A DNA stretch of 21,958 nucleotides from a virus. Of the stretch, positions 2,789 through 18,996 are shown piece after piece. Position numbers and translations under genes: made by a program. The DNA is taken from positions 1 to 21,958 of the IMG/VR virus record IMGVR_UViG_3300020183_000518, one strand, 5' to 3'. Numbering within the stretch: position 1 is the stretch's first letter; each line of letters starts with the position of its first letter. The notes under the pieces were generated by a model, which was not told the DNA's origin, did not search any database, and saw only the letters and a list, made by a program, of their open reading frames with translations.

Positions 2789-3564
2789 TCAAGCTCAAGC
2801 CACAGGCCGTCCAGGACTTGTACCGAGCGGTTCAGGCACTCGACGCGGTCGAAATCCTCATCGACAAGGACCGGGACCTCGGGTTCCTCTGGTCCCAGGA
2901 TCGCGGGGCGGCATTTGCCGTCAAGCTATGGGGCAAGGACCACGAGGGTCAAGTTCCGATGGACATTTTAGACAAGACCCTAGGCAATCCCGAGACCCCG
3001 CACGAAGCCGACCTTGGCAGGGCGCAGGCCGTGACCGTGGCCCCGGGGCGCGATGTTTCGCCCCTGGTGCGGGCGGCCCTCGCCGACATTCAGGAGCGAC
3101 GCAGGCTTGCCCAGATCCACGGGGCAAAGGACAAGACCGTCGAGCTCGAGATCGGCGGCGGGTTCCTGCGGGTCGGCATGATGCGGATCGAGGCTCCCTG
3201 CTGGGGGGCCGCGACGACCGCGGTCAATGGCGGGTACTTGATGACCGCGATCGACCACGCCTTCGGGATGACGGCTCACGGCGTGCAACTTGAGATTCAC
3301 GAGTCCGGGGTGGTCCGCGTGATGATGCAATCGCCGAATCAGCAGACCGAACCGGACTCTCGCTGGCGTGGGCAGGCGGTCATCGCTCCGGTCGTCCATC
3401 GTGACCGCCTCGAGGGGCTCAAGAAGGCGGGCCCAGATGCCGCGAGGCCGCCGACGGCACGCAGCTCATCGCCGTGTACCGGCGCGAGCGACGCAGCACC
3501 CGCAACACGACCGCCGACAGCAGCAGCACCACCAACCCCAACAAGAAGGAGCAGTGACCAATGA
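2785..3564 (+). CDS. possible divergent sliding-clamp-like protein, C-terminus replaced by out-of-frame sequence
   Basis: A 259-residue frame. Residues 1-216 look genuine: MIKLKPQAVQDLYRAV at the start and, at about 150-205, a segment (NGGYLMTAIDHAFG, then VQLEIHESGVVRVMM and AVIAPV) whose order of elements recalls the last domain of DNA polymerase III beta clamps (YLLDAL, then a strand pair, then a proline-containing end). This resemblance is weak and inferred by eye. From about nucleotide 3430 the translation becomes low-complexity Pro/Ala/Thr/Arg (TRPPTAAAPPTPTRRSS), while frame 3 of the same DNA, open from 3405, gives a protein-like tail (DGTQLIAVYRRERR) ending at 3557. The gene is therefore probably truncated at a recombination junction. 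Confidence 0.55.
   Translation: MIKLKPQAVQDLYRAVQALDAVEILIDKDRDLGFLWSQDRGAAFAVKLWGKDHEGQVPMDILDKTLGNPETPHEADLGRAQAVTVAPGRDVSPLVRAALADIQERRRLAQIHGAKDKTVELEIGGGFLRVGMMRIEAPCWGAATTAVNGGYLMTAIDHAFGMTAHGVQLEIHESGVVRVMMQSPNQQTEPDSRWRGQAVIAPVVHRDRLEGLKKAGPDAARPPTARSSSPCTGASDAAPATRPPTAAAPPTPTRRSSDQ
3405..3557 (+). pseudogene. C-terminal remnant of a foreign gene at the left end of an insert
   Basis: In the frame offset from the preceding gene, the last 35 codons read naturally as ADGTQLIAVYRRERRSTRN followed by TTADSSSTTNPNKKEQ and a stop at 3555-3557. This frame opens only at 3405, has no start codon and is protein-like only from about 3450. It looks like the 3' end of a gene whose 5' part was lost when it was joined to the preceding gene. 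The ribosome site of the next gene (AAGGAG, 3545-3550) lies inside it, so the two probably arrived together. Confidence 0.45.
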
Positions 3565-4094
3565 CGAACAGCATGTGGCAGCAGACCGAAGAGATGGCGA
3601 AGAAGCACGACCAGGGCGGCTCGCTCTGGCTCAAGCTCGCGGGCGATGGCGACAAGGCCGTCGTCGTCTTCCTGGGTGAGCCGCACCCGCGCGACGTGGC
3701 CTTCGTCGACGGCAAGTACGTCGAGGTCGACGAGAAGATGAAGGCTGCGGGTACGAAGGCCTCGCTGCGCGTCGCGCTGAACGTCGCCCTCTACGACTCG
3801 AAGGAAGTGAAGGTCCTCGAGCAGGGCGTGATGTTCTTCAAGGACCTCGTCCGCGTCCGCGAGAAGTACGGCCTCGAGAAGTGGGCCTTCGAGATCCAGC
3901 GCCACGGCGCGGCGAAGGACCCGAAGACAACGTACTCAATCCTCCCGGAGCACCAGCTCTCGGTCGAGCAGCAGAAGGCCTTCCAGGCGCTGCCGCAGCA
4001 CGACCTCGCGAAGCTCTACTCCGGCGAGGTGGACGGACGGCTCGCTCATGGCGACCTGCAAGCCGTGCTTCCTCGAGTCCGATCGCAGGGCTAA
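3561..4094 (+). CDS. phage ssDNA-binding-like protein, C-terminally truncated
   Basis: A 177-residue frame. Residues 1-158 are protein-like: WQQTEEMAKKHDQGGSLWLK, then GDKAVVVFLGEPHPRDVAF, an MFFKDLVRVREKYGLEKWAF segment and a DPKTTYSILPE motif. This layout recalls phage single-stranded DNA-binding proteins of replication modules, a family assignment made from memory and without a search. After LYSGEVDG (about nucleotide 4035) the reading turns into RLAHGDLQAVLPRVRSQG, which is only the shadow of the next gene, so the natural C-terminus is missing. All five Arg codons in the genuine part are CGC and all five Pro codons are CCG, while neighbouring genes mix CGG, CGC, CGT, CGA and CCC. The ribosome site is AAGGAG. 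It is probably of foreign origin. Confidence 0.6.
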   Translation: MTNSMWQQTEEMAKKHDQGGSLWLKLAGDGDKAVVVFLGEPHPRDVAFVDGKYVEVDEKMKAAGTKASLRVALNVALYDSKEVKVLEQGVMFFKDLVRVREKYGLEKWAFEIQRHGAAKDPKTTYSILPEHQLSVEQQKAFQALPQHDLAKLYSGEVDGRLAHGDLQAVLPRVRSQG

Positions 4095-4821: not shown

Positions 4822-5048
4822 ATCTGAAAGAAGAAGTTGAGTCGAAGGGCTGGGCCTTCGTCAGCGGATGGCTAATTAGCGAGCTTGCTCGCTGCCTAAG
4901 CGATAGCGACATTGAGAAAATTGCTACAGGGCTTCCACGGGAGATCGTCCAGTTTTTAGAGCGCATGGTCGCGTGGCGAACCCTCTCGCCGGATGTTTCA
5001 GCACTCGATAAAATTATCCTCGCAACGCGGAAGAGGTCACAGGTATGA
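4818..5048 (+). CDS. small protein, unknown function
   Basis: A 76-residue protein (MNLKEEVESKGWAFVSGWL, then CLSDSDIEKIATGLPREIV and FLERMVAWRTLSPDVSAL). It is mixed helical with no obvious catalytic motif. Codon use is more AT-tolerant (TTA, ATT, ATA) than in the flanking replication genes. It is coupled at both ends, with ATGA at 4818 and ATGA at 5045. Being directly in front of the Cas4-like nuclease it may belong to the recombination module, but nothing in the sequence shows a role. Confidence 0.6.
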   Translation: MNLKEEVESKGWAFVSGWLISELARCLSDSDIEKIATGLPREIVQFLERMVAWRTLSPDVSALDKIILATRKRSQV

Positions 5049-6100
5049 GCCCGGACGAAATCAAGGCCGCCTGTGAGCGGACCATGGACCTGGCACTTGA
5101 TCGCCTCGGACAACGCGTTCGGGGCGAGTGGAGGGTTCGTCCTTCTGGGATTCATCGCTGCGACCGGGCGCAGGTCCTCGCGGCTCGGCTCGACCCGGCC
5201 GAGGTCATTCAGCTTCCCCGGAAGCTGGCCCTCGCCTTTGAGGTCGGGACGAAGACGCACGAGATCGTCCAAGGCAACCTGCCCGAGGTTCCGTCGGAAG
5301 AGACGTGGGACTCGGGCGTCATGATCGGGCATTCGGACCTGCGACTCGTGCGCGAGGGCATCTTGATCGACCTGAAGACCATCAACGTCGAAGGCTACAT
5401 CGAGGTAGCAAAGAAGGGTCCGAAGCCCGAGCACGTCGCGCAGGTCACCTGGTACGCGGTCCAGTCAAAGTCCATTCGGGCCGCGATTGTTTACGTGAAC
5501 AAGAACGGGTCGATACCCGCGGGGCTGAAGGCCCCGAAGGACCTTAATCCGACCTATCTGGTCTGTCCGCTCCCGATGTCTCGCGAATCAATCGCGATAG
5601 CCCAGGGGATGGATGCGCGGGCCGAGGGCATCATCTCTCATGTAACGAACAAGACCCTCCCGGCTTATCAGGAGGTGCTCGAGTGCCGCTGGTGCGATCA
5701 CAAGGCCGCATGTCACAAGGCCCTCGTCGAAGATGCGCGGGCAGCGGCTAAGCTGGTCTTTCGGCACATCAACACGAAGGTCGTCGGGACGACGTTTCGG
5801 GAAGGCGGGCCGGACTGGACAACGTGCGAGCCAGGTCATCCGCTCGAGCTAGCATGGGACAAGGACAACCCGCACGGTCCCCGCAGGACCGACGGAACAG
5901 CGCAGGCCGTCAAGGTCTTGCTCGGTGGCGAGCATATCGGGTTCCTCCCTGCGACGGGCAGCCCGACGGCAGAGATAGTTTCGGATCACCTGGCCGCAGG
6001 CGGAACCGCCTCGGCGCGGGTGAACGAGATTACCGGTGGTGGTCCCGGCAAGAACCACGGCATCAACATCGAGATCGAGCTTCACGGCTCGGACTTCTAG
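5045..6100 (+). CDS. Cas4/RecB-like PD-(D/E)XK nuclease fused to a C-terminal HIRAN domain
   Basis: A 351-residue two-domain protein. Residues 30-235 carry the Cas4/RecB exonuclease pattern: Cys39 in HRCDRA, His72 in KTHEIV, Asp98 in GHSD, Asp109-Leu-Lys111 in LIDLKT, Gln133 and Tyr137 in QVTWY, and Cys214, Cys217 and Cys223 in CRWCDHKAAC. The four cysteines match the spacing of the iron-sulfur cluster of Cas4 and AddB nucleases. Residues 243-347 look like a HIRAN domain: VVGTTF at the start, LELAWDKDNPHG, then AVKVLLGGEHIGFLP and the closing strands. HIRAN domains are known to bind DNA ends, as in HLTF. The protein is probably a DNA-end processing nuclease in phage recombination, next to a DUF669-like protein. 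Domain calls were made by eye. Confidence 0.85.
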   Translation: MSPDEIKAACERTMDLALDRLGQRVRGEWRVRPSGIHRCDRAQVLAARLDPAEVIQLPRKLALAFEVGTKTHEIVQGNLPEVPSEETWDSGVMIGHSDLRLVREGILIDLKTINVEGYIEVAKKGPKPEHVAQVTWYAVQSKSIRAAIVYVNKNGSIPAGLKAPKDLNPTYLVCPLPMSRESIAIAQGMDARAEGIISHVTNKTLPAYQEVLECRWCDHKAACHKALVEDARAAAKLVFRHINTKVVGTTFREGGPDWTTCEPGHPLELAWDKDNPHGPRRTDGTAQAVKVLLGGEHIGFLPATGSPTAEIVSDHLAAGGTASARVNEITGGGPGKNHGINIEIELHGSDF

Positions 6101-6117: not shown

Positions 6118-6531
6118 ATGAAGATGAAGCGGACCACGACGTTCGCCCAGGTCAGCCCGGGCACCTATCAAGCGATCCTTCACAACCTCGACGCGAAGAC
6201 GATCACCACGGCCGAGGGACCGACCGACATTGTCGAGTGGGTCTTCCGCATCGCGGACGGCGAGCACGAAGGCGACATGGTCTCGGGCTCGACCTCGCAG
6301 GCGTGGAGCGAGAAGTCTAAGGCCTTCGCCTGGGCTAAGTCGCTGAACGGTAACAAGGCATGGGACGGTGTCGACAAGGACGGGGACCCGGATATCGCGG
6401 GCCTGGTCGGGCTGTCTTGCTTCGTCGAGGTCAAGGAAAAGGTCTCGGCCAACGGTACCGCGAGGACCAAGGTTGAGGCCGTGCTTCCCGATCTGTCCGC
6501 GAAGAAGGCCGCGCAAAAGATCCAGTTCTAG
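6118..6531 (+). CDS. DUF669-like ssDNA-binding candidate
   Basis: A 137-residue protein of predicted beta-rich fold (GTYQAILHNLDAKTITTAEG, then EWVFRIADGEHEGDMVSG and LVGLSCFVEVKEK). It fits the OB-like DUF669 pattern of phage proteins encoded beside Cas4-like nucleases and helicases, which are thought to bind single-stranded DNA in replication or annealing. The start at 6118 was chosen because GAAAGG lies upstream at good spacing and the longer in-frame stretch overlaps the nuclease gene. The C-terminus (LSAKKAAQKIQF) is short and basic. The family name is a judgement from size, strand pattern and neighbours, not from a search. Confidence 0.6.
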   Translation: MKMKRTTTFAQVSPGTYQAILHNLDAKTITTAEGPTDIVEWVFRIADGEHEGDMVSGSTSQAWSEKSKAFAWAKSLNGNKAWDGVDKDGDPDIAGLVGLSCFVEVKEKVSANGTARTKVEAVLPDLSAKKAAQKIQF

Positions 6532-6553: not shown

Positions 6554-6584
6554 AAACCCCGGGGCGCGTGAGGCCTCGGGGTTT
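6554..6584 (+). terminator. 12-bp hairpin between the ssDNA-binding gene and the primase gene
   Basis: AAACCCCGGGGC (6554-6565) pairs with GCCTCGGGGTTT (6573-6584) over 12 positions with one G-T pair, leaving the 7-nt loop GCGTGAG. The right arm ends in TTT followed by CGATAT, so only a weak U-tract is present. It may be a partial terminator or attenuator setting primase levels. It also makes a GTG at 6568 inside the loop an unlikely start. Confidence 0.5.
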
Positions 6585-6609
6585 CGATATCCGCCCCACC
6601 ATAGAGAGG

Positions 6610-8778
6610 ATGATTCAATTGTACCCTATCGAATCACGTTTGCGAGAGCTCGAGTCCGTCGCCAGGCTAGGGCAAGTCTTCATCGCGGTGCATCACGTCA
6701 AGCCCGACGGCAAATGCACTTGCGGCCGCGAGACCTGCGACTCGCAGGGCAAGCATCCCATCGACCGAGGGTGGCAGGCCCCGGGGGCTCAGTACGACGC
6801 GGCCGAGGCGGCGAAGTGGTATCGGCAAGGCCGGAACGCGGGCATCGTCACCGGGGCCGAGACCGGGCTTCTGCTTCTCGACCTCGACAACGAGGACGCC
6901 GTTTGCTGGTTCGAGGAGCGGAATCAGGACACGCCGTTTTTCATGGTCAGGACCGGGCGAGGGGCGCACGTCTACTACAAGCATCCGGGCTGGGACGTGC
7001 GGAACTCGGTCGGCGCCTTGGCCTCGGGCGTCGATGTTCGCGGCGAGCGTGGCTTCGTCGTGGCCCCCGGGTCGATTCACAAAAACAAGCGCATGTACGC
7101 GGTTGACGTTGAGAGCCAGGACGAACCGCAGGCCGTTCCCGCGTGGCTCGACGAGGCATTGAAGCAGGCGACCCGGCCACGGGGCGAGGCGTCACCTGTC
7201 CGAACGGATGCCGACGGGATCATCCGCGAGGGCGGCAGGAACGAGGCGGTCTTCTCGACGGCGGGATCCCTGCGGCGGCAGGGGCTCGGGTATGAAGCGA
7301 TCCTCGCAGCGCTCCGGGGAATGAACGAGACCGCGGTGGTCCCCCCGCTCGAGGACCGGGTCCTTGTCGACATTGCCGAGCGGGTCGTCGACGGGTACGA
7401 GGCCGGGACTCCGGTTCGGCGGATCAAAATCGGCTTGGCGTCTGGGCTCAAGGTCGAGAAGCCCCAGGGCGACGCAAAGCAGGTCGTTCAGCCGGACGAC
7501 GTGGCCCGGGCATACATCGAGGCGACTGCGGACAAGCCCCTCGCCCAGCACCGGGGATTCTGGCTACAGTTCAACGGCAAGTGCTATGAGCTCATCACGG
7601 AAGAGGAAGTCGGGAAGTCGGTCCTCGCCAGGATGCAGCAGGCCCCGGAACTCGTGAGCAAGTGCAAGCGGGCATTCGTCGGGGATGTTGTGGCGAACCT
7701 CGCGCCTCGAGTTAGCATCCCGAAGCAAATCGAGCTCGGGGGCTGGACTTCCGGGGAAGGGACGCTGTCGATCGTCGCGCAGAACGGAATCGTCAATGTC
7801 GACGGCTACCTTGCCGAGCGGGACGGCTGGCTGAAGCCTCATGACCCGGCACTTCTGGCGACGGTCTGTTTGCCCTTCGCGGTCGATCCCGAGTCCGACT
7901 GTCCGCTCTGGTTGTCGGTGCTCGAGAAGATCATGCCGGATGCGGATACTCGGACCCGGCTTCAACAATGGTTCGGGCTCAACCTGGTCCCCGACATTTC
8001 GCATCAACTCGCCGCGATCCTGGTCGGGGACGGGTCGAACGGCAAGTCCACCGTCCTCGAGATCCTCGGCGACCTGGTCGGCCGGGGGAACTATTCAACG
8101 GTGCCGCTTGAGCGGTTCGGTGAGCGGTTCGACCTCGCCGCGATGGTCGGCAAGTCGGCCAACATCGCGCATGAAATGGGCGAGATCGACAAGGCCGCGG
8201 AAGGCGTCTTGAAGCAGTTGATCTCGGGCGAGGAAATGACTTTTGAGCGAAAGCACAAAGACCCGTATCAGGCACGGCCGACGGCGCGGCTGACCTTCTC
8301 GACGAATGTCCTTCCGCGGTTCGCGGATCGGACTGACGCGATCTGGCGGCGGCTCCTGATCTTTCCCTTCAACGTCAAGATTCGGCAGGAAGAGAAGGAC
8401 TACGGCATCCTCGGCAAGTTGCGCGGCGAGTTGCCCGGGATTTTCAACTGGGCGATCTACGGGCTCGAGCTACTGAAGGCCAACGGCATCGCCGAATCGC
8501 TCGAGATGGTTAACACGAAGGCGCGTTATCGCGAGGCCGTGAATCCCTTTCTTCAGTGGGTCGATGACCGGGTCGATGACACGGGCCTCGGCACCGTTGA
8601 GACCGCCAAGCTTCACGAGGACTATCGGTCCTGGTGCGGGACGAATGGATACCATCCCCTCGCGGCTCGGACTTTCGAGTCGGAACTTGAGCGGCACTTC
8701 CGCAGGGTCGTGACAAGGCCAAGGGATAACGGCGGGGCGAGGCCGAGGGTATTCCCTGGCCTGAGGATCGTGCGGTGA
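6610..8778 (+). CDS. primase-polymerase fused to D5-type SF3 helicase
   Basis: A 722-residue replication protein. The N-terminal Prim-Pol domain has a Cys/His cluster (Cys36, Cys38, Cys43, then GKHP), the catalytic DLD at Asp91/Asp93, His120 in GRGAHVYY, and VDVRGERGFVVAPGS at about 141-155. The C-terminal half is a D5-like SF3 helicase: Walker A GDGSNGKST (473-481), motif C FSTN (563-566) and an arginine finger in WRRLLIFPF (579-587). Such proteins prime and unwind DNA at the phage origin. The ATG at 6610 sits directly behind AGAGAGG (6603-6609), which is too close; an in-frame TTG at 6619 has ideal spacing and may be the true start. The non-coding island just downstream is a candidate origin for this protein. 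Confidence 0.92.
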   Translation: MIQLYPIESRLRELESVARLGQVFIAVHHVKPDGKCTCGRETCDSQGKHPIDRGWQAPGAQYDAAEAAKWYRQGRNAGIVTGAETGLLLLDLDNEDAVCWFEERNQDTPFFMVRTGRGAHVYYKHPGWDVRNSVGALASGVDVRGERGFVVAPGSIHKNKRMYAVDVESQDEPQAVPAWLDEALKQATRPRGEASPVRTDADGIIREGGRNEAVFSTAGSLRRQGLGYEAILAALRGMNETAVVPPLEDRVLVDIAERVVDGYEAGTPVRRIKIGLASGLKVEKPQGDAKQVVQPDDVARAYIEATADKPLAQHRGFWLQFNGKCYELITEEEVGKSVLARMQQAPELVSKCKRAFVGDVVANLAPRVSIPKQIELGGWTSGEGTLSIVAQNGIVNVDGYLAERDGWLKPHDPALLATVCLPFAVDPESDCPLWLSVLEKIMPDADTRTRLQQWFGLNLVPDISHQLAAILVGDGSNGKSTVLEILGDLVGRGNYSTVPLERFGERFDLAAMVGKSANIAHEMGEIDKAAEGVLKQLISGEEMTFERKHKDPYQARPTARLTFSTNVLPRFADRTDAIWRRLLIFPFNVKIRQEEKDYGILGKLRGELPGIFNWAIYGLELLKANGIAESLEMVNTKARYREAVNPFLQWVDDRVDDTGLGTVETAKLHEDYRSWCGTNGYHPLAARTFESELERHFRRVVTRPRDNGGARPRVFPGLRIVR

Positions 8779-9632: not shown

Positions 9633-9989
9633 TTGACGATCCGATCCGATGGATTCCCGGCCCGGGTCAAGCCTAGGCCAAGGACGACGCAGGGCGGGCA
9701 CGTTTACATGCCAGGCGAATACATGGCCTGGAAGAGACAGATTGCCGGAAGAGTTGCTCTGGCCTTGAGTGGATGCCCGGTCTGGCGTCAAGATAGACTC
9801 AGCCTCGAGCTCTGGTTCTGGACGGGAAAGGGGGATGTTGACAACCTCGCAGGAGGGGTGATGGACGCTCTGAATGGGATTGCGTGGCACGATGACGAGC
9901 AGGTGATCGACTTGGTCGTGAGAAAGCGACCGAAGGCAAAGACAAGTCCGCGATGGGTCGCGGTCGTCCGCGTCTCGGCCGATGCTTAA
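9633..9989 (+). CDS. rusA: RusA-like Holliday junction resolvase
   Basis: A 118-residue resolvase of the RusA family, which cuts four-way DNA junctions during recombination and before packaging. The core GDVDNLAGGVMDALNG has the paired acids Asp68 and Asp70, and WHDDEQVIDL gives Asp87/Asp88 as the third acid. The N-terminus, MTIRSDGFPARVKPRPRTT, fits family starts with a proline/arginine-rich beta strand. This start is a TTG at 9633 with GAGG 8 nt upstream; no ATG is available and the longer frame upstream is the shadow of the zinc-ribbon gene. The lysine that follows the DxDN motif in E. coli RusA (Lys76) appears here as Gly74, an unusual change at a residue known to matter for catalysis. 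Confidence 0.85.
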   Translation: MTIRSDGFPARVKPRPRTTQGGHVYMPGEYMAWKRQIAGRVALALSGCPVWRQDRLSLELWFWTGKGDVDNLAGGVMDALNGIAWHDDEQVIDLVVRKRPKAKTSPRWVAVVRVSADA

Positions 9990-10614: not shown

Positions 10615-10968
10615 ATGCCGAAGGTTGTTCCGCAGGTCGATGACAACATGCTACGCCAGGTGGAAGAGCTAGCCGGGTACGGTTTGAGCGTCGCGCAAAT
10701 CGGCTGCATTGTTGGCTTTTCCGAGCGGACGGTGCACGAGAGAGCGAAGGAAAACGAAGACTTTGGCGCGGCCTTACAGAGGGGCAGGGCCAAAGCCGCG
10801 GCAATCGTAGGAAAGGCCCTTTTTCAACGGGCGAAGGACGGCGACGTTCAGGCGATCCGATGGTGGGAAATGACCCGTGAAGGCAGGTCCGAAAAGCGGC
10901 AAGTGGAGCAGCAGGCGAAGGAAGAGATCATCATCCGGTGGCCTGACGAGGAAGGCGGCGAGGGGTGA
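10615..10968 (+). CDS. terS: terminase small subunit
   Basis: A 117-residue protein. A sigma-like helix-turn-helix occupies about residues 16-45 (VEELAGYGLSVAQIGCIVGF, then SERTVHERAKENEDFGAALQ). It is followed by an amphipathic oligomerisation region (GRAKAAAIVGKALFQRAKDG) and WWEMTREGRSEKRQVEQQ. This is the common layout of small terminase subunits, which recognise phage DNA for packaging by the large subunit encoded at 12723. The ATG at 10615 with GGGGGG 7 nt upstream is preferred over an in-frame TTG at 10594. The stop overlaps the GTG of the Dam-like gene. Two methyltransferase genes separate it from terL, which is unusual. Confidence 0.8.
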   Translation: MPKVVPQVDDNMLRQVEELAGYGLSVAQIGCIVGFSERTVHERAKENEDFGAALQRGRAKAAAIVGKALFQRAKDGDVQAIRWWEMTREGRSEKRQVEQQAKEEIIIRWPDEEGGEG

Positions 10969-11423
10969 GCAGGAAGAACCCGGAGGACAACAAGTTTCAC
11001 CGGGGCAACGGAGGAGACGGAAAGCACTACTGGCTTACTCCACCAGAGGTTTATGCCCCTCTCAACAATGAGTTTGGCTTCACCTTTGACCCGTGCCCAT
11101 ACCCAAAACCCGACGACTGGGACGGCCTGACGGGAGAGTGGGGAAGCAGCAACTACGTCAACCCTCCATTCGGTTCGATTATCCACGAAGGAAAGAAGAA
11201 GGGGCCGACTGCGTGGGTGCGAAAAGCCATTGAAGAACAGGCCAAAGGCAAAGATGTTGTTCTGGTCTACCCGGTCGACAAGTGGATCCTAATGCTGCTT
11301 CAGGCAGGCGCAGAGGTTCGCAACCTGGGCGACGTGAAGTGGTTGGCTACTGAAGACAACAGCCAAGGCAAAGGGACAGGAAGGCATATCGCCTGCTTCG
11401 TTTTAAAGGCCCATAAGGCATGA
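10965..11423 (+). CDS. phage Dam-like DNA N6-adenine methyltransferase
   Basis: A 152-residue protein of the phage Dam family (DNA N-6-adenine-methyltransferase). YWLTPPEVYAPLN at about 22-34 and FGFTFDPCPYPKPDDW match the family's TP-x-x-LY and D-P-C start. The catalytic motif is NPPF at 66-69. The product should methylate adenine in a short DNA site, perhaps GATC, to protect phage DNA or mark packaging sites. The start is GTG, in a GTGA overlap with terS. Codon use differs from the neighbours, with more AGG, GGA, CCA, ACT and CTT, so the gene was probably acquired recently. It is near the short end of the family. Confidence 0.82.
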   Translation: MSRKNPEDNKFHRGNGGDGKHYWLTPPEVYAPLNNEFGFTFDPCPYPKPDDWDGLTGEWGSSNYVNPPFGSIIHEGKKKGPTAWVRKAIEEQAKGKDVVLVYPVDKWILMLLQAGAEVRNLGDVKWLATEDNSQGKGTGRHIACFVLKAHKA

Positions 11424-12610
11424 CCCAAGCCGAGGTTCTGGTGGGCGACTGCATCGAGAAGATGCGGACCCTTGCCGATTCGTCCGTCGATTCCATCGTG
11501 ACCGATCCCCCCTATGAGCTCGGGTTCATGGGCAAGTCCTGGGACGCGTCGGGCGTCGCCTTCCGGGTAGACGTGTGGCGCGAGGCCCTGCGGGTGCTGA
11601 AGCCAGGCGGGCACCTGCTCGCGTTTTCGGGAAGCCGGACCTATCACCGGATGGCCGTGGCGATCGAGGACGCCGGGTTCGAGATCCGCGATCAAATCAT
11701 GTGGGTTTACGGGTCGGGATTCCCGAAGTCGCACGACGTGAGCAAGGCGATCGATGCGGCGGCGGGTGCGGTGCGGCAGGTGGTTGGCATCACAATTAAA
11801 GGCGCGCAGTCTGTTTCAACGGGTCGATATGGTTCCTGGGGCGAAGGCATAACGCCTACCGCTCCCGCCACGCCCGAGGCCGAACGCTGGTCCGGCTGGG
11901 GCACGGCTCTCAAGCCTGCTCACGAGCCTATCGTCGTCGCCCGCAAGCCGCTCGTGGGCACCGTGGCGCAGAACGTACTAGCGCACGGGACCGGGGCGCT
12001 GAACATCGACGGGTGCAGGGTGGGGACGGAGGGCGGAACCGCCAAAGCAGGCTTGCCGTCTTATGTTCAAGGGATTTCGTTGAAGGGTTCTCTTGACGGA
12101 TCATTGAATGGCGGCGGCCCCGTTTCGATTGATGCAGGCCGTTGGCCCGCGAACCTGATCCACGACGGGAGCGAGGAGGTCGTGGGGCTGTTCCCGGGGG
12201 ACGAGGGCGCGAGTGCAGCACGCTTCTTCTACAGCCCGAAGGCGAGCAAGGCCGACCGGGACGAGGGGCTACGCGACGGCGGCATCGGTGCGCTACGCGA
12301 CGGCGGCAGGCCGTCAGAGGCAAGGCGCAACATCCATCCGACGGTCAAGCCCTCGGACCTGATGCGCTATCTCTGCCGCCTAGTTACGCCGCTCGGCGGC
12401 TTGGTCCTCGACCCCTTCACGGGATCGGGCAGCACGGGCAAGGGTGCGGTCCTCGAGGGCTTCCGATTCTTGGGGATCGAGCTATCGCCGGAATATGCCG
12501 CGATTGCTCGGGCCCGCATCCGGCATGCCGTCGGGCATGTTGCGCCTGAGCCCGTGACCGAAGTCCAGGCTTCCGAGGCCCCTCGCGGGCAAATGAGGCT
12601 GTTCGCATGA
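11420..12610 (+). CDS. DNA methyltransferase, N4/N6 type, beta-class motif order
   Basis: A 396-residue methyltransferase. The catalytic motif TDPPYELGFMGKSWD is at residues 28-42 and the AdoMet-binding DPFTGSGSTGKG starts at 331, so the order is catalytic motif, variable target region, then AdoMet motif, as in beta-class enzymes that methylate N4-cytosine or N6-adenine. HPTVKPSDLMRYL (about 310) and FLGIELSPEYAAIARARI (about 350) are further family motifs. No restriction enzyme gene is adjacent, so it is probably an orphan enzyme for anti-restriction. Within the target region, LRDGGIGALRDGG comes from a 24-nt period duplication (12268-12308). The start ATGA overlaps the Dam-like stop. Confidence 0.92.
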   Translation: MTQAEVLVGDCIEKMRTLADSSVDSIVTDPPYELGFMGKSWDASGVAFRVDVWREALRVLKPGGHLLAFSGSRTYHRMAVAIEDAGFEIRDQIMWVYGSGFPKSHDVSKAIDAAAGAVRQVVGITIKGAQSVSTGRYGSWGEGITPTAPATPEAERWSGWGTALKPAHEPIVVARKPLVGTVAQNVLAHGTGALNIDGCRVGTEGGTAKAGLPSYVQGISLKGSLDGSLNGGGPVSIDAGRWPANLIHDGSEEVVGLFPGDEGASAARFFYSPKASKADRDEGLRDGGIGALRDGGRPSEARRNIHPTVKPSDLMRYLCRLVTPLGGLVLDPFTGSGSTGKGAVLEGFRFLGIELSPEYAAIARARIRHAVGHVAPEPVTEVQASEAPRGQMRLFA

Positions 12611-12732
12611 CAGGTCAACTCGCCCCGGCATCGTCGGACTGGTGCCTCTGGGACTTCGTGGCCTTGGCCGTCGTCCTGGCGGGGCACGTCGCGATCCTCG
12701 TGGCGCTAGCGAGCGGGGGGGGATGCCCCTGA
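12607..12732 (+). CDS. 41-residue single-pass membrane protein between methyltransferase and terminase
   Basis: Reads MTGQLAPASSDWCLWDF followed by a strong hydrophobic helix (VALAVVLAGHVAILVALA) and a short GGGCP end. Its ATG overlaps the methyltransferase stop (ATGA) and it ends 10 nt inside the terminase gene. The overlaps at both ends and the clean membrane helix argue for a real small gene. No family recognised. Confidence 0.5.
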   Translation: MTGQLAPASSDWCLWDFVALAVVLAGHVAILVALASGGGCP

Positions 12733-13886
12733 GGATTTGTCTTCCGAGGCTGCATCGGGCGCAACTCGAGGTCGCGAAGGATCCGACCCGGTTTCGAGTT
12801 CTTGTCTGCGGCAGGCGATGGGGCAAGACCCGCCTCGGTGCGTCCCTCGCCCTGCGGGCAGGCCTCGAGGGCAAGCGGGTATGGTGGGTGGCCCCGACTT
12901 ACTCGATCTCGGGGATCGCATGGGAGCAGGTCCGGGCCATGTCGCGGCATCTCGGGGCAACCGCAATCGAATCAACACGAACCCTAAAATTCCCGTCTGG
13001 CGGGTTCGTCGCCTTCAAGTCCGCCGACAACCCGGACAACCTGCGGGGCGAGGGGCTCGACTTCCTGGTGATGGACGAGGCCGACTTCGTTGCGCGTCGG
13101 GTCTGGGAAGAGGTCTTGCGGCCTGCTCTCGCGGACCGGAGGGGCAAGGCCCTGATCATCTCGACCCCGAACGTCGAGGGAGGATGGTTCCACGAGCTTG
13201 TGCAGCGGGGCCAGGGCGAAGACCTCGAGGTCCGGTCGTGGCAGTTGCCGAGTTGGACGAACCCGCACCTAGACGCGGCCGAGATTGACGCGGCCCGGTC
13301 TACCTTGCCCGCGATAGTCTTCCGTCGGGAGTTCGGTGCGGAGTTCGTGTCCGCGGCTGGGGCCCTGCTTCGCCGGGAATGGATCCGGGTCGCCGAGCCT
13401 CCCGAGCGGGAGGGGCTGGACGTGGCCGTCGGGGTTGACCTTGCGATCTCGACGAAGGACGGGGCCGACTGGACCGCGGCCGTGGCACTCGGGCGAGACC
13501 GCGATGGTAGGCTATGGGTCCTCGACGTGGCCCGGGCTCGCTTGCCGTTTCATCAGGTCCTCGGCTTCGTGGCCGGGTTCGCGAAACGATGGGATCCCCG
13601 GACCGTGGCCGTCGAGCAGGTGCAATTCCAAGCCGCGGTCGTGACCGAGCTTCTGAGGACGACGGATCTTCCGGTAGTCGGGGTCCGTCCCGACAAGGAC
13701 AAGGTGACGCGGTTCACGGGCATCCAGGCGCGATTCGAGCAGGGGATGGTGAACCTTGCCCCCGACCTACCCGGCGATTTCACGCGGGAGCTTCTGGGGT
13801 TCCCGGTTGCCGACCACGACGACATGGTTGATGCCCTGGTCTACGCGCACCGGGCGCTCGGGTACGGGTCGCTCGAGATGTCCTGA
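12723..13886 (+). CDS. terL: terminase large subunit (packaging ATPase and nuclease)
   Basis: A 387-residue motor protein that pumps DNA into the prohead and cuts it. ATPase domain: Walker A CGRRWGKT (29-36), Walker B LVMDEAD (115-121, acids Asp118 and Glu119) and coupling motif ISTPN (146-150). The RNase H-like nuclease domain has acids at Asp239 (GVDLAIS), Glu298 (AVEQVQF) and Asp366-Asp370 (DHDDMVDAL). The ATG at 12723 directly follows a run of eight G that can serve as ribosome site; the longer in-frame stretch overlaps the small membrane gene. The stop codon sits in TCC-TGA-G, and the +1 frame behind it stays open for 28 codons with coding-like composition. The length is short for the family but all motifs are present. 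Confidence 0.92.
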   Translation: MPLRICLPRLHRAQLEVAKDPTRFRVLVCGRRWGKTRLGASLALRAGLEGKRVWWVAPTYSISGIAWEQVRAMSRHLGATAIESTRTLKFPSGGFVAFKSADNPDNLRGEGLDFLVMDEADFVARRVWEEVLRPALADRRGKALIISTPNVEGGWFHELVQRGQGEDLEVRSWQLPSWTNPHLDAAEIDAARSTLPAIVFRREFGAEFVSAAGALLRREWIRVAEPPEREGLDVAVGVDLAISTKDGADWTAAVALGRDRDGRLWVLDVARARLPFHQVLGFVAGFAKRWDPRTVAVEQVQFQAAVVTELLRTTDLPVVGVRPDKDKVTRFTGIQARFEQGMVNLAPDLPGDFTRELLGFPVADHDDMVDALVYAHRALGYGSLEMS

Positions 13887-13971
13887 GGAATCTTTCGCCG
13901 AGGCGGCGCGGATCGGGAAGAGGCAGGGCGAGTTGATCGAGGAAATGGTGAAGGATCTCGTCCGGTCTTGA
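13885..13971 (+). other. possible +1 frameshift extension of the terminase
   Basis: Directly after the terL stop (TCC TGA, 13881-13886), the +1 frame reads EESFAEAARIGKRQGELI then EEMVKDLVRS and a stop at 13969-13971. Composition and third-base GC match coding DNA, yet no start codon fits. It is either a programmed frameshift extension, the remnant of a longer TerL C-terminus, or chance. The sequence then runs 32 nt to the portal gene with nothing else visible. Confidence 0.35.
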
Positions 13972-14003
13972 ACGGCCGCGGTCCCGGGCGGTACCCTTGA
14001 GTC

Positions 14004-15293
14004 ATGGGCATGCTCGAGCGGTGGAATGCGGCGGTCAAGGCGTGGCGACTTGGGGCGGCGACGGTCGCGACCGACGCGGGCTTCGCGTCCTTCGCTTTTG
14101 GTGACGAGCGACGCGGACTTTCGGCATCGAAGGTTGTCGAGCTCTCGACCGCGGTCTATTCCGCGACTGACCTTCGGGCGTCGGCCTTGTCCGCGATACC
14201 CGTCCGAATCATGGACTATAGCGGCGAGCACGGCGAAGAGGTCTTCGCGGGATCGGCCTATGACCTCTTCTCGAAGGTGAATCCTCACTGGACGCTCGGG
14301 CGTCTGCTCGAGGCCGTCGAGGTCTCGATGTGCACCTACGGTCAAGCGTTCCTGGTCGTTGAGAAGGACGGTCGCGGGGTTCCGATCGAGCTCTGGTTCG
14401 CCAATGCAGCGAAGATGCGGGTCCTTCCGCATCCGACGGAATACATCGCGGGCTACCTTTACAAGTCCGAGAACAAGGAAGTCCGACTCGACCCGGACGA
14501 CGTGGTGTGGATTCACGGGATCCCCGACCCGGCGAACGAGTTCCGGTGTCTGTCCCCGCTTGAGGCGGCGAGGCTGTCGGTTGAATCGAACCTCGACGCC
14601 CTCGAGAGCAATCGCAACATCTTCCGTAACGGAATGAATCCTGGCGGCATCATGTACCCGGCCGAGCAGGGGATCGCCCTGACGAAAGAACAACGGATGC
14701 AGATCGAGGAGCAGTTGAACATCCGGCTCAAGGGGAAGGACCGGGCGCATCGGCTCGCGGTCTTTTCTCATCCGATGAAGATTGAGACCCCGGCCCTGTC
14801 GCCTTCGGATGCCCAGTTCATGGAGCTCTTGAACTGGACACTCGGTGACGTAGCCCGGGCTTTCAAGATCCCGCCGACCAAGTTGCAGGACTTCTCGCGG
14901 GCGACTTACAACAACGTGAGCGAGGCGGACAAGGCTTTCTATACCGATTGTGTCATCCCCGAGGCCCGCAGGATCGCGGGGGCCTTGAATGAGCAGTTGA
15001 TGCCGATGTTCGGTCCCAACCTTGTTCTTGAGTTCGACTTCTCGAAGATCCCGGCGATGCAGGAAGACCAGACCGAGATCACCGACCAGATGGTCAAGCT
15101 TTACGGGATGGGCGTCCCGCTGAACAAGTTGCTCGAGGTCTACCGTCCCGATCTGCTGCCCGCAGGCGGCGAGGGTTACGCTTGGGGCGACGAGCCTCCG
15201 CTTGCCCCGGGGCTGTTTCCTGTCCCCCAGGCCGGACAGGCTAATCCCCCGGCACCGTCACCAGAACTGCGGGTCTTGCGGGGAAAAGCCTAG
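14004..15293 (+). CDS. portal protein, HK97 family
   Basis: A 429-residue portal protein, the dodecamer at the capsid vertex through which DNA enters. Family features are visible in order: SASKVVELSTAVYSATDLRA near the N-terminus, LGRLLEAVEVSMCTYGQAFL (about 98-117), the DDVVWIHG strand, LSPLEAARLSVE, NRNIFRNGMNPGGIM, the LNWTLGDVARAFKIPPTKL core (about 280-298) and the ATYNNVSEADKAFYTDCVIP segment. The ATG at 14004 has only a poor ribosome site (TTGAG); an ATG at 14010 is an alternative. The C-terminus is Pro-rich (PPLAPGLFPVPQAGQANPPA). It lies between terL and the MuF-like gene, the usual order. Confidence 0.92.
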   Translation: MGMLERWNAAVKAWRLGAATVATDAGFASFAFGDERRGLSASKVVELSTAVYSATDLRASALSAIPVRIMDYSGEHGEEVFAGSAYDLFSKVNPHWTLGRLLEAVEVSMCTYGQAFLVVEKDGRGVPIELWFANAAKMRVLPHPTEYIAGYLYKSENKEVRLDPDDVVWIHGIPDPANEFRCLSPLEAARLSVESNLDALESNRNIFRNGMNPGGIMYPAEQGIALTKEQRMQIEEQLNIRLKGKDRAHRLAVFSHPMKIETPALSPSDAQFMELLNWTLGDVARAFKIPPTKLQDFSRATYNNVSEADKAFYTDCVIPEARRIAGALNEQLMPMFGPNLVLEFDFSKIPAMQEDQTEITDQMVKLYGMGVPLNKLLEVYRPDLLPAGGEGYAWGDEPPLAPGLFPVPQAGQANPPAPSPELRVLRGKA

Positions 15294-15370
15294 GCCCTCG
15301 AGGACCTGTCTCGGTTCTCGGGGGGATCGACGCCGTCCCAGCCTTCGGGTCTGTTCTGCATCGTGCGGCG

Positions 15371-16150
15371 ATGACGGCTCGGGATCGAGCGATTCGTCCG
15401 TTCGAGCGGTCGATGAAGGCCGCGGTCCGGGGCGTACAAGAAGGGCTCATCGATCACTACTCAGCCCAGATCCGACGGACGGGAAAGGCAGAGGCCGGGG
15501 GGCTGGACCTGGACGACGACGACGAGAACCGGGACTTTATCGCGGAAGCCTATCGGACGACTTTCCCGGTCATGGACCGGACCTTCGCCGCGGGGGGGCG
15601 ATCTGGGATGATGAAGGCCCGAGTCGGCATCTCATTCGACGCTCGCAACGTACGATCCGAACTGTGGCTGCGGAGGCGCGAACAACGCTTCGTCGAGCAG
15701 GTTGCCGACAGCGCGTGGCGGGAGCTAAAGGCCAAGTTGACGCGGGCGATGGAAGGCGGAACGAGCATCGACAACCTCGTCGAGATCGTCCAAGAACTCC
15801 CGGCCTTTGGGCCCGAGAGGGCCGAAACGATCGCTCGGACCGAGGTCATCGGGGCCTACAACGGCGGGCTCGAGGAAGGCTTCCGTCAGTCGGGCAACGT
15901 GCAATCGAAGGTCTGGCTTGCGGCCCTCGACGATCGGACCCGCGAGACGCATGCGCTTCTGCACGATCAGCGGGTCGCCCTCGGCGCGAACTTTGTCTCG
16001 GTATCCGGGGCAAGCGGACCCGCTCCCGGGCAACTCGGGGAACCTGGCGAGGACATCAACTGCCGATGCAGCATTGAGGCGATTGTCGGCTTTGCCCCGG
16101 GCATCGATGAGATCGCCCCAGGCGTGAATGAGACCGAGGTTCTAGAGTAG
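15371..16150 (+). CDS. MuF-like minor head (head morphogenesis) protein
   Basis: A 259-residue protein with the phage Mu gpF-like C-terminal domain: ERAETIARTEVIGAYNGGLE, then VWLAALDDRTRETHALLHDQ and the end motif GEPGEDINCRCSIEA. Such minor capsid proteins sit inside or near the portal and help head assembly; some are injected with the DNA. The ATG at 15371 has no visible ribosome site. The frame is open further upstream through the 77-nt gap and into the end of the portal gene but offers no other start codon. An acidic patch (LDLDDDDENRD) lies near residue 45. The stop is directly followed by the next ATG. Confidence 0.85.
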   Translation: MTARDRAIRPFERSMKAAVRGVQEGLIDHYSAQIRRTGKAEAGGLDLDDDDENRDFIAEAYRTTFPVMDRTFAAGGRSGMMKARVGISFDARNVRSELWLRRREQRFVEQVADSAWRELKAKLTRAMEGGTSIDNLVEIVQELPAFGPERAETIARTEVIGAYNGGLEEGFRQSGNVQSKVWLAALDDRTRETHALLHDQRVALGANFVSVSGASGPAPGQLGEPGEDINCRCSIEAIVGFAPGIDEIAPGVNETEVLE

Positions 16151-17641
16151 ATGCCGATCACGAACTTCCCCGAGGCCGGGGACGACTCGCCCGTGTCCCT
16201 GCGGTCGAGCAGGTATCCCCTCTTCCCGCTAAACGAGGCGCAAGCACTAAAGGATGACTATCCCGAGATATGGGATAGGGGCGGCAACATCCTCGGAAGC
16301 AAGCAGTTCAATCGACTTGCGCCGATGGCCCGGGATCGTCGGTCCCCCGAGACCGACACTGAGGAAGAGGCGGTTCGATTGCGTGAGGCCTGGGCTGCGC
16401 GGCATCTCGAGGACTTCCGACTTGCAGGGGTTATTGCTCAGGTCAAGTGGCTGGTGATAGGCTCAAGAGGCCTGGACCATATGCGAGACGTGATCATGGC
16501 AGAGAAAGAACGGCTTCGGGATCGTCGCGAGTTCCGAGCGCCCCTGTCCCTGAAGGACGGGAAGGCGTCATTCGTGATGACGACCGACGCCCTCGATCGG
16601 CAAGGCGAGGTTGTCGAGGCTGAAGGATGGGACTTTGCAAATTACTTGAAGAACCCGGTCATTCTGGACACTCATCGCTACGAGTCGATCGAGGACATCG
16701 TCGGCAAAGCCGTGGGTGAGCCCCGAAGGGAGGGTTCCGGCTACGTTGTCGACATTGAGTTCGCCAACACGGAACGGGGCAAGGTGGCGAAGGCCTTGGT
16801 CGAGCAAGGCATGCTCAATGCGGTCTCGGTCGGCTTTCGATCGACGCAGCGGCGGAAGGAAGGCCGCACGGTCCACCATGTGCAGAAGGAGTTACTCGAG
16901 GTAAGTCTTGTTGCGATCCCGGCAAACCCGACCGCACTTCGGGTCAAGGCCGTTCAGCCGTTCCGCGACTTGCCCATGGCATCGGACGATCTGGTATGGA
17001 ATCAGCCCGAGGCGCAAGACCGCGTTCGGCGATGGGCATCCTCGGACAAGTCGGGCGATAAAGACAAGATGGAATGGGACCGTTATGCTCGGGCCTTCAT
17101 GCTTGTCCGCGACGGAATGGAAGAGGACTTCGGCGGTTACGCGTACCCGTTCGCGGACGTGGTCGGCGATCGCCTGGTCGCGCATATTCGTCCGGTGCAA
17201 ATCATCGCGAACATCCTCGCAGGCGGACAGGGCGGCGGCAGCCTGAGCCCGGAGGATCGCAGGCGCATGGCGCGGGTTGTTGAGCGGTACTACGAGAAGG
17301 CGGGCGTCGACTTGCCGGAGTCAGTGGCGGATCTCGCCAAGGGGAGCTATATGAACAGGCCAGATGACGACGAGCAGGACATGATCGGCGAGAAGCCGAA
17401 AAAGCCCATGGCAAAGAACGAGCGCTTGCTCGCCCTGCGGGATCATCTTGTGTCGGCGGCTGCGGTTGTTGACGCCCTTCTCGAGGGCTACGACGAGAAC
17501 GAAGAAATGCCCGAGGACGAAGCCCCGGTCGTCGAGGACTCCGCGAAGGCGGGGGGGGCTAGACAAGAAGCGGCCAAGCCGGAAACACTGGTGAGAGCAC
17601 TTAAGGCGGCGGTAGCCGCAATTGGAGGAGTTAACAAGTGA
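16151..17641 (+). CDS. prohead protease (S78) with extra N- and C-terminal domains
   Basis: A 496-residue, three-part protein. Residues 1-125 (EIWDRGGNILGSKQFNRLAP, then GVIAQVKWLVIGSRGLDHM) are an N-terminal extension. Residues 130-270 are an HK97-type S78 serine protease, with catalytic His175 (LDTHRYES) and Ser226 (NAVSVGFRS) and the EVSLVAIPANP end motif. Residues 281-390 (WNQPEAQDRVRRWASSDK, then DFGGYAYPFADVVGDRLV and ARVVERYYEK) are a domain often seen attached to phage proheads' protease genes. The acidic, helical C-terminus (ENEEMPEDEAPVVEDSA) may act as scaffold. A run of eight G at about 17551-17558 lies in frame. The protein should cleave the scaffold part and the capsid N-terminus during maturation. 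Confidence 0.88.
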   Translation: MPITNFPEAGDDSPVSLRSSRYPLFPLNEAQALKDDYPEIWDRGGNILGSKQFNRLAPMARDRRSPETDTEEEAVRLREAWAARHLEDFRLAGVIAQVKWLVIGSRGLDHMRDVIMAEKERLRDRREFRAPLSLKDGKASFVMTTDALDRQGEVVEAEGWDFANYLKNPVILDTHRYESIEDIVGKAVGEPRREGSGYVVDIEFANTERGKVAKALVEQGMLNAVSVGFRSTQRRKEGRTVHHVQKELLEVSLVAIPANPTALRVKAVQPFRDLPMASDDLVWNQPEAQDRVRRWASSDKSGDKDKMEWDRYARAFMLVRDGMEEDFGGYAYPFADVVGDRLVAHIRPVQIIANILAGGQGGGSLSPEDRRRMARVVERYYEKAGVDLPESVADLAKGSYMNRPDDDEQDMIGEKPKKPMAKNERLLALRDHLVSAAAVVDALLEGYDENEEMPEDEAPVVEDSAKAGGARQEAAKPETLVRALKAAVAAIGGVNK

Positions 17642-18996
17642 GCGACGTTGAGAAGCTCCTGGGCGACCTCGTCGCGCAGGTCGAGGCCAAGGGCGCAAGC
17701 CTCGAGGGCCGCATCGGTGAGATCGAGGCCGTCGTGAAGGCGAACCCGGGCCTCGCCCGCAAGATGGCGTTCTCGGGCGACGCCAACACCCAAGGCAGCA
17801 AGTTCGCCGGGATGGCCTCGGGTGACGTGCAGATGCTCAACGACATCATGAAGTCCGCTCATCGGCAGACCGGGATCGGTCCTTCCGAGGAACTGAGCAA
17901 CGCGGCCGAGGCCGTGAGCAAGCGGTACATCAAGGCCTACCCCGCGAGCCTCGCCGCGGTGCCCTTCACCAAGGCGACTCAGAACGAGGGCGCGACTGGC
18001 TTCGGTCAAGAGCTCGTCGGCGTTCAGTACGTCTCGGAACTCTGGGATGCCGCTCGGCAGGATAGCCGGGTCTTCGGCCTGCTCGACACCTTCGAGATGA
18101 TTCATCCCTCGGCCTTCCTGCCTGTCGTTGCTGATTTGCCCGAGCCCATCCTCGCGGCAGAGAACACCACCGAGAACAGCTTCCTTGCTGGAACTGGACG
18201 CGTCGGCAGCAATCGGGTCTCGGTGACGGCGAAGAAGATGTTGATCAATCAACTCTGGACCTACGAGCTCGAAGAGGACGCAATCATCCCCTTCTTGCCT
18301 TTCATCCGGGCCCAGGTTGCCGCGTCGCTCGCGTTCTTCAGTGACTCGGTCGTCCTCAACGGCGACACGACGGACGCGGCGACCGGGAACATCAACTCAG
18401 ATGACGCAGACCCGGCGAACGATAAGTTCTTCCTGGCCTTCGACGGCATCCGGCATGTCGGCCTGGTTGACAATGCGAGCAACGGCATCAACGCGTCGGG
18501 CGCGATTGCCTTGAGTCAGCTTGCGGCCCTGAAGGGCAAGATGCTGGACTCGACTTTCAAGATCGACTGGGGGCATCCCGTCAGGTCGCAGGATCTCATT
18601 TATGTGTGCGATCCGCAGACCGCCGACGCGATCGCCCAGCTTGATCAGGTCGTGACGGTCGACAAGTTCGGCCCGCAAGCCGGGGTTCTTGTCGGTCAGG
18701 TCGGCAACGTCCTCGGATGCCCTGTCATCTCGACGATGGCGATGGGTCTGACCGAGGCGGACGGCAAGATCAGCGCGACCGCGGCCAACAACACGAAGGG
18801 TCAACTCGTTGCCTTTAACCGTAACGGATTCAAGGTCGGTCTCCGCAAGGCCGTGACTCTTGAGCTCGAGAGGATGCCTGGCATGCAGCAGTCGCGCCTC
18901 GTGGCCTCGTTCCGTCTCGGCCTCGGCCGCTACTCGCCGACTGGTGCAGCCAGCGGGATCGAGTGCGCGTCCGTGCTCTACAACATCAGCTTGTAG
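17638..18996 (+). CDS. major capsid protein, HK97 fold
   Basis: A 452-residue capsid subunit. The N-terminal 70 residues are helical and charged (MSDVEKLLGDLVAQVEAKG, then SLEGRIGEIEAVVKA), the typical delta/scaffold domain removed by the prohead protease. The rest follows HK97-type capsid proteins: VPFTKATQNEGATGFGQEL, TFEMIHPSAFLPVVADLPEP (the E-loop region) and DDADPANDKFFLAFDGIR through FKVGLRKAVTLELERM. It starts with GTG behind a strong GGAGGAG (17624-17630), in a GTGA overlap with the protease. Codon use is more regular than in early genes (GAG, AAG, GGC), as expected for the most abundant virion protein. Confidence 0.9.
   Translation: MSDVEKLLGDLVAQVEAKGASLEGRIGEIEAVVKANPGLARKMAFSGDANTQGSKFAGMASGDVQMLNDIMKSAHRQTGIGPSEELSNAAEAVSKRYIKAYPASLAAVPFTKATQNEGATGFGQELVGVQYVSELWDAARQDSRVFGLLDTFEMIHPSAFLPVVADLPEPILAAENTTENSFLAGTGRVGSNRVSVTAKKMLINQLWTYELEEDAIIPFLPFIRAQVAASLAFFSDSVVLNGDTTDAATGNINSDDADPANDKFFLAFDGIRHVGLVDNASNGINASGAIALSQLAALKGKMLDSTFKIDWGHPVRSQDLIYVCDPQTADAIAQLDQVVTVDKFGPQAGVLVGQVGNVLGCPVISTMAMGLTEADGKISATAANNTKGQLVAFNRNGFKVGLRKAVTLELERMPGMQQSRLVASFRLGLGRYSPTGAASGIECASVLYNISL

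Follow-up and report, generated by a model that had tools for sequence, protein, structure and literature searches.

HIRAN domains are small modules that bind DNA and are familiar chiefly from repair proteins of humans and yeast. In human HLTF the domain binds single-stranded DNA (ssDNA), with Y72 and Y93 stacking on a dinucleotide and with N90/N91 being needed (PMC4666394). The HIRAN domains of Rad5 also bind ssDNA, but blocked 3' ends are bound equally well, and a difference from HLTF in the β2-β3 loop accompanies the lost preference for a 3'-OH (PMC7804152). Cas4-type nucleases are widespread in phages. Cas4 SSO0001 is a 5'-3' ssDNA exonuclease whose four cysteines bind Fe-S and which is inactive on D99A exchange (PMC3466216), and Cas4 has been described fused to Cas1 and also to UvrD-like helicases (PMC5704561).

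Here we analysed a 21,958-nucleotide stretch of viral DNA (the window; IMG/VR record IMGVR_UViG_3300020183_000518), in which a sequence-only reading had seen a gene joining a Cas4-like nuclease to a C-terminal HIRAN-like domain. Our analysis confirmed this fusion as a real domain combination, apparently a rare one (Table 1), and the residue positions given earlier (H72, D98, D109, K111, Q133, Y137 and the cysteines C39, C214, C217 and C223) were correct. The start ATG overlaps the stop codon of the preceding small ORF and lies just 3' of a purine-rich GGAAGAGG stretch. As the full-length AlphaFold model is of low confidence (mean pLDDT 58), the two-domain arrangement is not readable from it.

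Table 1. The fusion gene, its two domains and the replication genes downstream of it.
Feature	Coordinates	Strand	Remarks
Cas4-type nuclease-HIRAN fusion protein	5045..6100	+	one intact open frame, 351 aa
Cas4/RecB-type PD-(D/E)XK nuclease domain	5117..5713	+	residues ~25-223 (about 25-225); PHROG, alignment, hhalign, Foldseek
HIRAN domain	5762..6097	+	residues 240-351; Pfam sub-threshold, Foldseek, hhalign
DUF669-like protein, probable ssDNA-binding protein	6118..6531	+	immediately downstream; Pfam DUF669 E 0.022, PHROG 378 (SSB) E 0.023, both weak
Prim-Pol / D5-type primase-helicase	6568..8778	+	Pfam Prim-Pol E 5e-22, DUF5906 E 2e-22; PHROG 1156 E 5e-85
RusA-type Holliday junction endonuclease	9639..9989	+	Pfam RusA E 4e-15

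For the N-terminal half, motifs, PHROG matches and profile-profile comparison agree on a Cas4-type nuclease signature. The motifs comprise C39, GH96-x-D98, D109-x-K111, Q133-x3-Y137 and C214-x2-C217-x5-C223, the cysteine and active-site layout described for Cas4 and AddB, with D98 falling in the motif that corresponds to D99 of SSO0001 (PMC3466216). The protein matched PHROG 1706 (E 5.8e-14, residues 25-236) and PHROG 1990, 'Cas4-domain exonuclease' (E 1.3e-10), as did all six family members scanned, and a profile of nine phage Cas4 exonucleases aligned with the family profile over residues 36-224 (hhalign E 1.2e-17). Across 13 aligned proteins, ten of them other phage or plasmid Cas4-like nucleases, H96, D98, K111, Q133, Y137, C39, C217 and C223 are invariant and C214 is nearly so. 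H72 is retained in tail-less relatives and is mostly Glu in those with a cysteine tail, which leaves H96 of the GHxD motif as the better-conserved histidine. Foldseek with the low-confidence full-length model listed alkaline exonuclease 3syy, Cas4 SSO0001 (4ic1), RecE, lambda exonuclease and the Argonaute-associated Cas4-like ACE1, phage alkaline exonucleases being among the matches. VRR-Nuc was not matched in Pfam scans of the window protein and family members, and the nuclease is of Cas4 type, not FAN1 type; an NCBIfam scan gave nothing useful. We dismissed matches to PF20056 (DUF6455) and RPB9 near residues 182-236, judging that the surroundings of the cysteine motif resemble these families by chance. 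By analogy with SSO0001, the fusion protein would be an exonuclease of 5'-3' polarity (PMC3466216). The earlier label 'iron-sulfur' holds as far as the four-cysteine pattern goes; the metal was read from that pattern only, with zinc possible in the same site (PMC3466216), and the cluster is a predicted one.

The C-terminal half proved to be HIRAN-like by fold and by profile-profile comparison. Scanned alone, the domain scored 19.1-19.2 bits against Pfam HIRAN (E 0.0011-0.0012), short of the curated gathering cut-off of 24.7 bits, which is a convention and not a structural feature, and we therefore call it a divergent HIRAN. In scans of whole proteins, HIRAN showed in two of six family members and was not reported for the window protein at E<=10. 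Searches of PDB sequences with the protein or with family profiles returned nothing meaningful, so that fold comparison was needed. The HIRAN part modelled by AlphaFold on its own reached a pLDDT of 72 and a pTM of 0.70, and Foldseek with residues 240-351 matched lp_0118 (3k2y; E 9e-4) and the human HLTF HIRAN (4xzg; E 5e-3), each with probability 1.00 and a TM of about 0.6, while every other match among the PDB matches listed had a probability of 0.10 or less. We count 3k2y as a HIRAN relative because the standalone phage HIRAN A1432 finds both HLTF (E 1.7e-5) and lp_0118 (E 0.007) by sequence. A profile of ten phage HIRANs matched the C-terminal profile of the family (hhalign E 8e-8) and, when compared with the whole fusion protein, aligned on residues 243-327; an unrelated family, taken as a negative control, gave a probability of 0.6%.

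In IMG/VR, pattern scans were run with the whole fusion protein, with its HIRAN half and with the two family alignments; each time the same six other contigs came up. Both domains lie in frame and without stops in all seven contigs, the sixth relative's contig ending inside the HIRAN part. An annotation artefact, meaning a C-terminal part with no kinship to HIRAN or a join made by misassembly or a frameshift, would fit the sub-threshold Pfam score, but this open frame, the hhalign match to phage HIRANs and the standing of HLTF and lp_0118 as the sole PDB matches near full probability among those listed already contradict it, and we find it scarcely credible. Both halves are under purifying selection, with dN/dS spanning 0.07-0.32 for the nuclease part and 0.07-0.31 for the HIRAN part; retention of the fusion in seven contigs together with these low ratios indicates more than chance. 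No protein spanning both halves was found by tblastn in 50,697 phage records or in 72,556 plasmid records, and a pattern scan of GTDB contigs with the fusion found no relative, these searches being of limited sensitivity, in that a highly diverged fusion would escape both tblastn and seeding by exact patterns. The terminase of the window matched nothing in GTDB contigs and the major capsid candidate (17638-18996) nothing in INPHARED; the phage lineage to which the capsid/terminase region (12642-18996) belongs is represented in these collections by neither an isolate nor a sequenced host. No tRNA was found in the relatives' contigs.

The HIRAN half had also been proposed to sense 3' DNA ends, on the ground that HIRAN domains bind such ends, and here our results depart from the earlier reading. 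Recognition of the 3'-OH is established for HLTF; it is not a general property of HIRAN domains, to judge from Rad5 (PMC7804152). In the fusion protein the β2-β3 loop is rebuilt (residues 275-291, NPH-GPRRTDGTAQ-AVKV). The loop motif N-x-[YHF]-D-x-[NH]-A was present in all 32 other phage or viral HIRAN sequences inspected, whereas the fusion family has N275-P276-H277-G278-PRRTDGTAQ-A288-V289 at this site, with N275-P-H277 kept and the Asp displaced by an insertion. The segment GPRRTDGTAQ after H277 is conserved across the family except at two positions, and Asp283, five residues beyond the usual place of the loop Asp, is invariant. By alignment, the HLTF ligand positions Y72, N90, N91 and Y93 correspond to F251, D274, N275 and H277 and are only partly kept, His at the Y93 position being common among phage HIRANs; the Arg-containing insertion follows these positions. 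A true sensor, with HIRAN gripping a 3'-OH and the nuclease cutting back the complementary 5' strand, could draw on the need of the HLTF domain for a free 3'-OH, on the retained N275 and aromatic F251 and on Asp283, which might stand in for the usual Asp. The loop insertion and the changed Y93/D94 positions argue against it, as does the precedent of Rad5, whose HIRAN has an altered loop and has lost the 3'-OH preference; such a sensor is possible, but we do not favour it and regard it as improbable.

Alternatively, the domain might act mainly by docking to proteins of the phage replisome (clamp, SSB or primase-helicase), which would tether the nuclease there and not to DNA; we consider this rather unlikely. 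A positively charged region of the Rad5 HIRAN binds PCNA as well as DNA (PMC7804152), the HLTF-like ligand positions are incompletely retained, and the HIRAN half is generally better conserved than the Cas4 half (79-97% versus 63-96% identity), as expected for a docking surface. However, among the conserved HIRAN residues are two invariant Arg and the N-P-H of the loop that binds DNA.

The proposed neighbourhood of DUF669-like, Prim-Pol and RusA genes was borne out by Pfam and PHROG matches (Table 1). The DUF669-like gene adjoins the fusion in all relatives whose contig reaches there, and its product has a probable SSB-like role, judged from the weak DUF669 match and from the DUF669 protein of phage HK620, a distant homologue of phage SSBs (PMC5928155). 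Where contigs extend, the order small genes, fusion, DUF669-like, primase-helicase, RusA, terminase, portal is kept. A second SSB-like gene lies at 3561-4094 (PHROG 14578, E 9e-14); it is missing in four relatives (G001, G002, G003, G005) and in two others (G004, G006) its last 22 residues alone match, so that this slot is exchanged among them. At 10965-12610, two adjoining genes match DNA methyltransferase families (PHROG 111, PHROG 67), the smaller being absent from the relatives' matches. The window showed no recognisable single-strand annealing protein.

A link to the acquisition of host-derived spacers has been drawn for phage Cas4-like proteins (PMC4283603, as related in PMC5704561), and the fusion protein might be a nuclease of attack or defence, one that breaks down host DNA or, like the Cas4-like protein of Campylobacter phages, interferes with CRISPR adaptation. 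Yet no cas1, cas2 or CRISPR-linked family was found among the window proteins scanned, leaving the nuclease without the linkage to cas1/cas2 that would place it with the CRISPR-associated Cas4 proteins, and the gene sits within a conserved block in a phage replication context; we think this role very doubtful. We lean instead towards a phage recombination/replication nuclease, a Cas4-type exonuclease with HIRAN as its DNA anchor. The Cas4-type domain would trim one strand at DNA ends, probably 5' to 3', and the C-terminal HIRAN, binding DNA as its described counterparts do, would hold the enzyme on exposed ssDNA or ss/ds junctions. The ssDNA product would be taken up by the adjoining SSB-like DUF669 protein and, together with the primase-helicase and RusA, would feed into recombination-dependent replication. 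A single chain guiding its own resection, HIRAN holding the free 3' strand while the Cas4 domain degrades the 5' strand, has not been described before, and we give it a low probability.

Phage Cas4-domain exonucleases (PHROG 1706 / 1990; among them those of Pseudomonas phage NP1, Thermus phage YS40, Achromobacter phage vB_Ade_ART) share with the fusion the nuclease core and the four Fe-S-type cysteines, and they too usually lie in replication/recombination neighbourhoods. Unlike the fusion, the nucleases of YS40, PA_L9 and pMESIL02 stop at the cysteines or shortly beyond them and have no HIRAN, and those of NP1, ART and M39, as well as 80 further IMG/VR proteins, carry a short CRTC...C...C tail in its place. 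These 80 were the best of at least 571 IMG/VR Cas4 exonucleases by sister-group profile, and the HIRAN profile matched none of them. A strict pattern placed the C-x2-C...C...C tail in 76 of the 80; on inspection the other four also had a CRTC/CRSC tail, with wider spacing or with the contig end cutting it. The tail (NCRTC...W.C...GC), which follows the Fe-S cysteines in essentially all sampled sister exonucleases (L083-L162), has no confident Pfam match and resembles a small zinc ribbon. Descent of the fusion from these exonucleases by a simple module swap is unsupported: the zinc-tailed proteins group by themselves (100/99), separate from both the window family and the nucleases lacking a tail, in a tree that is unrooted, with long branches and unsure position. 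Since nearly all sister exonucleases have a cysteine-rich module right after the Fe-S cysteines, this position tolerates an accessory module. A natural HIRAN fusion where nearly all sampled sister-group relatives carry another small module suggests that the C-terminal slot holds a targeting module, an idea for which this compact two-domain protein offers a test case.

The standalone phage HIRANs (DLP4, PaMx28, AXL1, A1432 and relatives) are homologous to the HIRAN of the fusion but are unfused, of about 95-100 aa and canonical in their loop. A Cas4-type nuclease is present in their phages too, but as a gene of its own, far from the HIRAN gene in Pamexvirus-type phages. In none of 22 IMG/VR loci with a phage-type HIRAN was the domain joined to a nuclease; it stood alone or behind short N-terminal stretches, some membrane-spanning (hydrophobic, membrane-like stretches precede HIRAN in the viral contigs L071, L072, L077 and L081). 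With the sampled relatives of the nuclease lacking HIRAN and the sampled phage-type HIRANs lacking a nuclease, the fusion is confined, within this sample, to one uncultured phage lineage. Among viral structures, the full model matched best BFVD A0A8S5T8B4 and A0A8S5P580, proteins of 405 and 454 aa that carry the annotations helicase and DNA polymerase III alpha; the alignments covered HIRAN-sized stretches of about 120-130 columns, a hint that phages have further HIRAN fusions. In agreement with the sequence-only reading, we found no characterised phage enzyme of Cas4-HIRAN design, and those of the papers searched that name HIRAN and Cas4 together have them as separate genes.

HLTF and Rad5 have the same HIRAN fold, used for ssDNA binding and fork remodelling, but joined to a SWI/SNF ATPase and a RING domain and without a nuclease. 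VRR-Nuc, the nuclease domain of plant FAN1, likewise belongs to the PD-(D/E)XK superfamily. Akin to the fusion, plant FAN1 holds a nuclease and a HIRAN in one chain (PMC4402529), but it is eukaryotic, its VRR-Nuc is not of Cas4/RecB type and lacks the four-cysteine staple, and its HIRAN precedes the nuclease. Both domains are therefore well known and a nuclease-HIRAN fusion is known in plant FAN1; what is new is the Cas4-HIRAN combination, which would be a prokaryotic/viral parallel to the plant enzyme.
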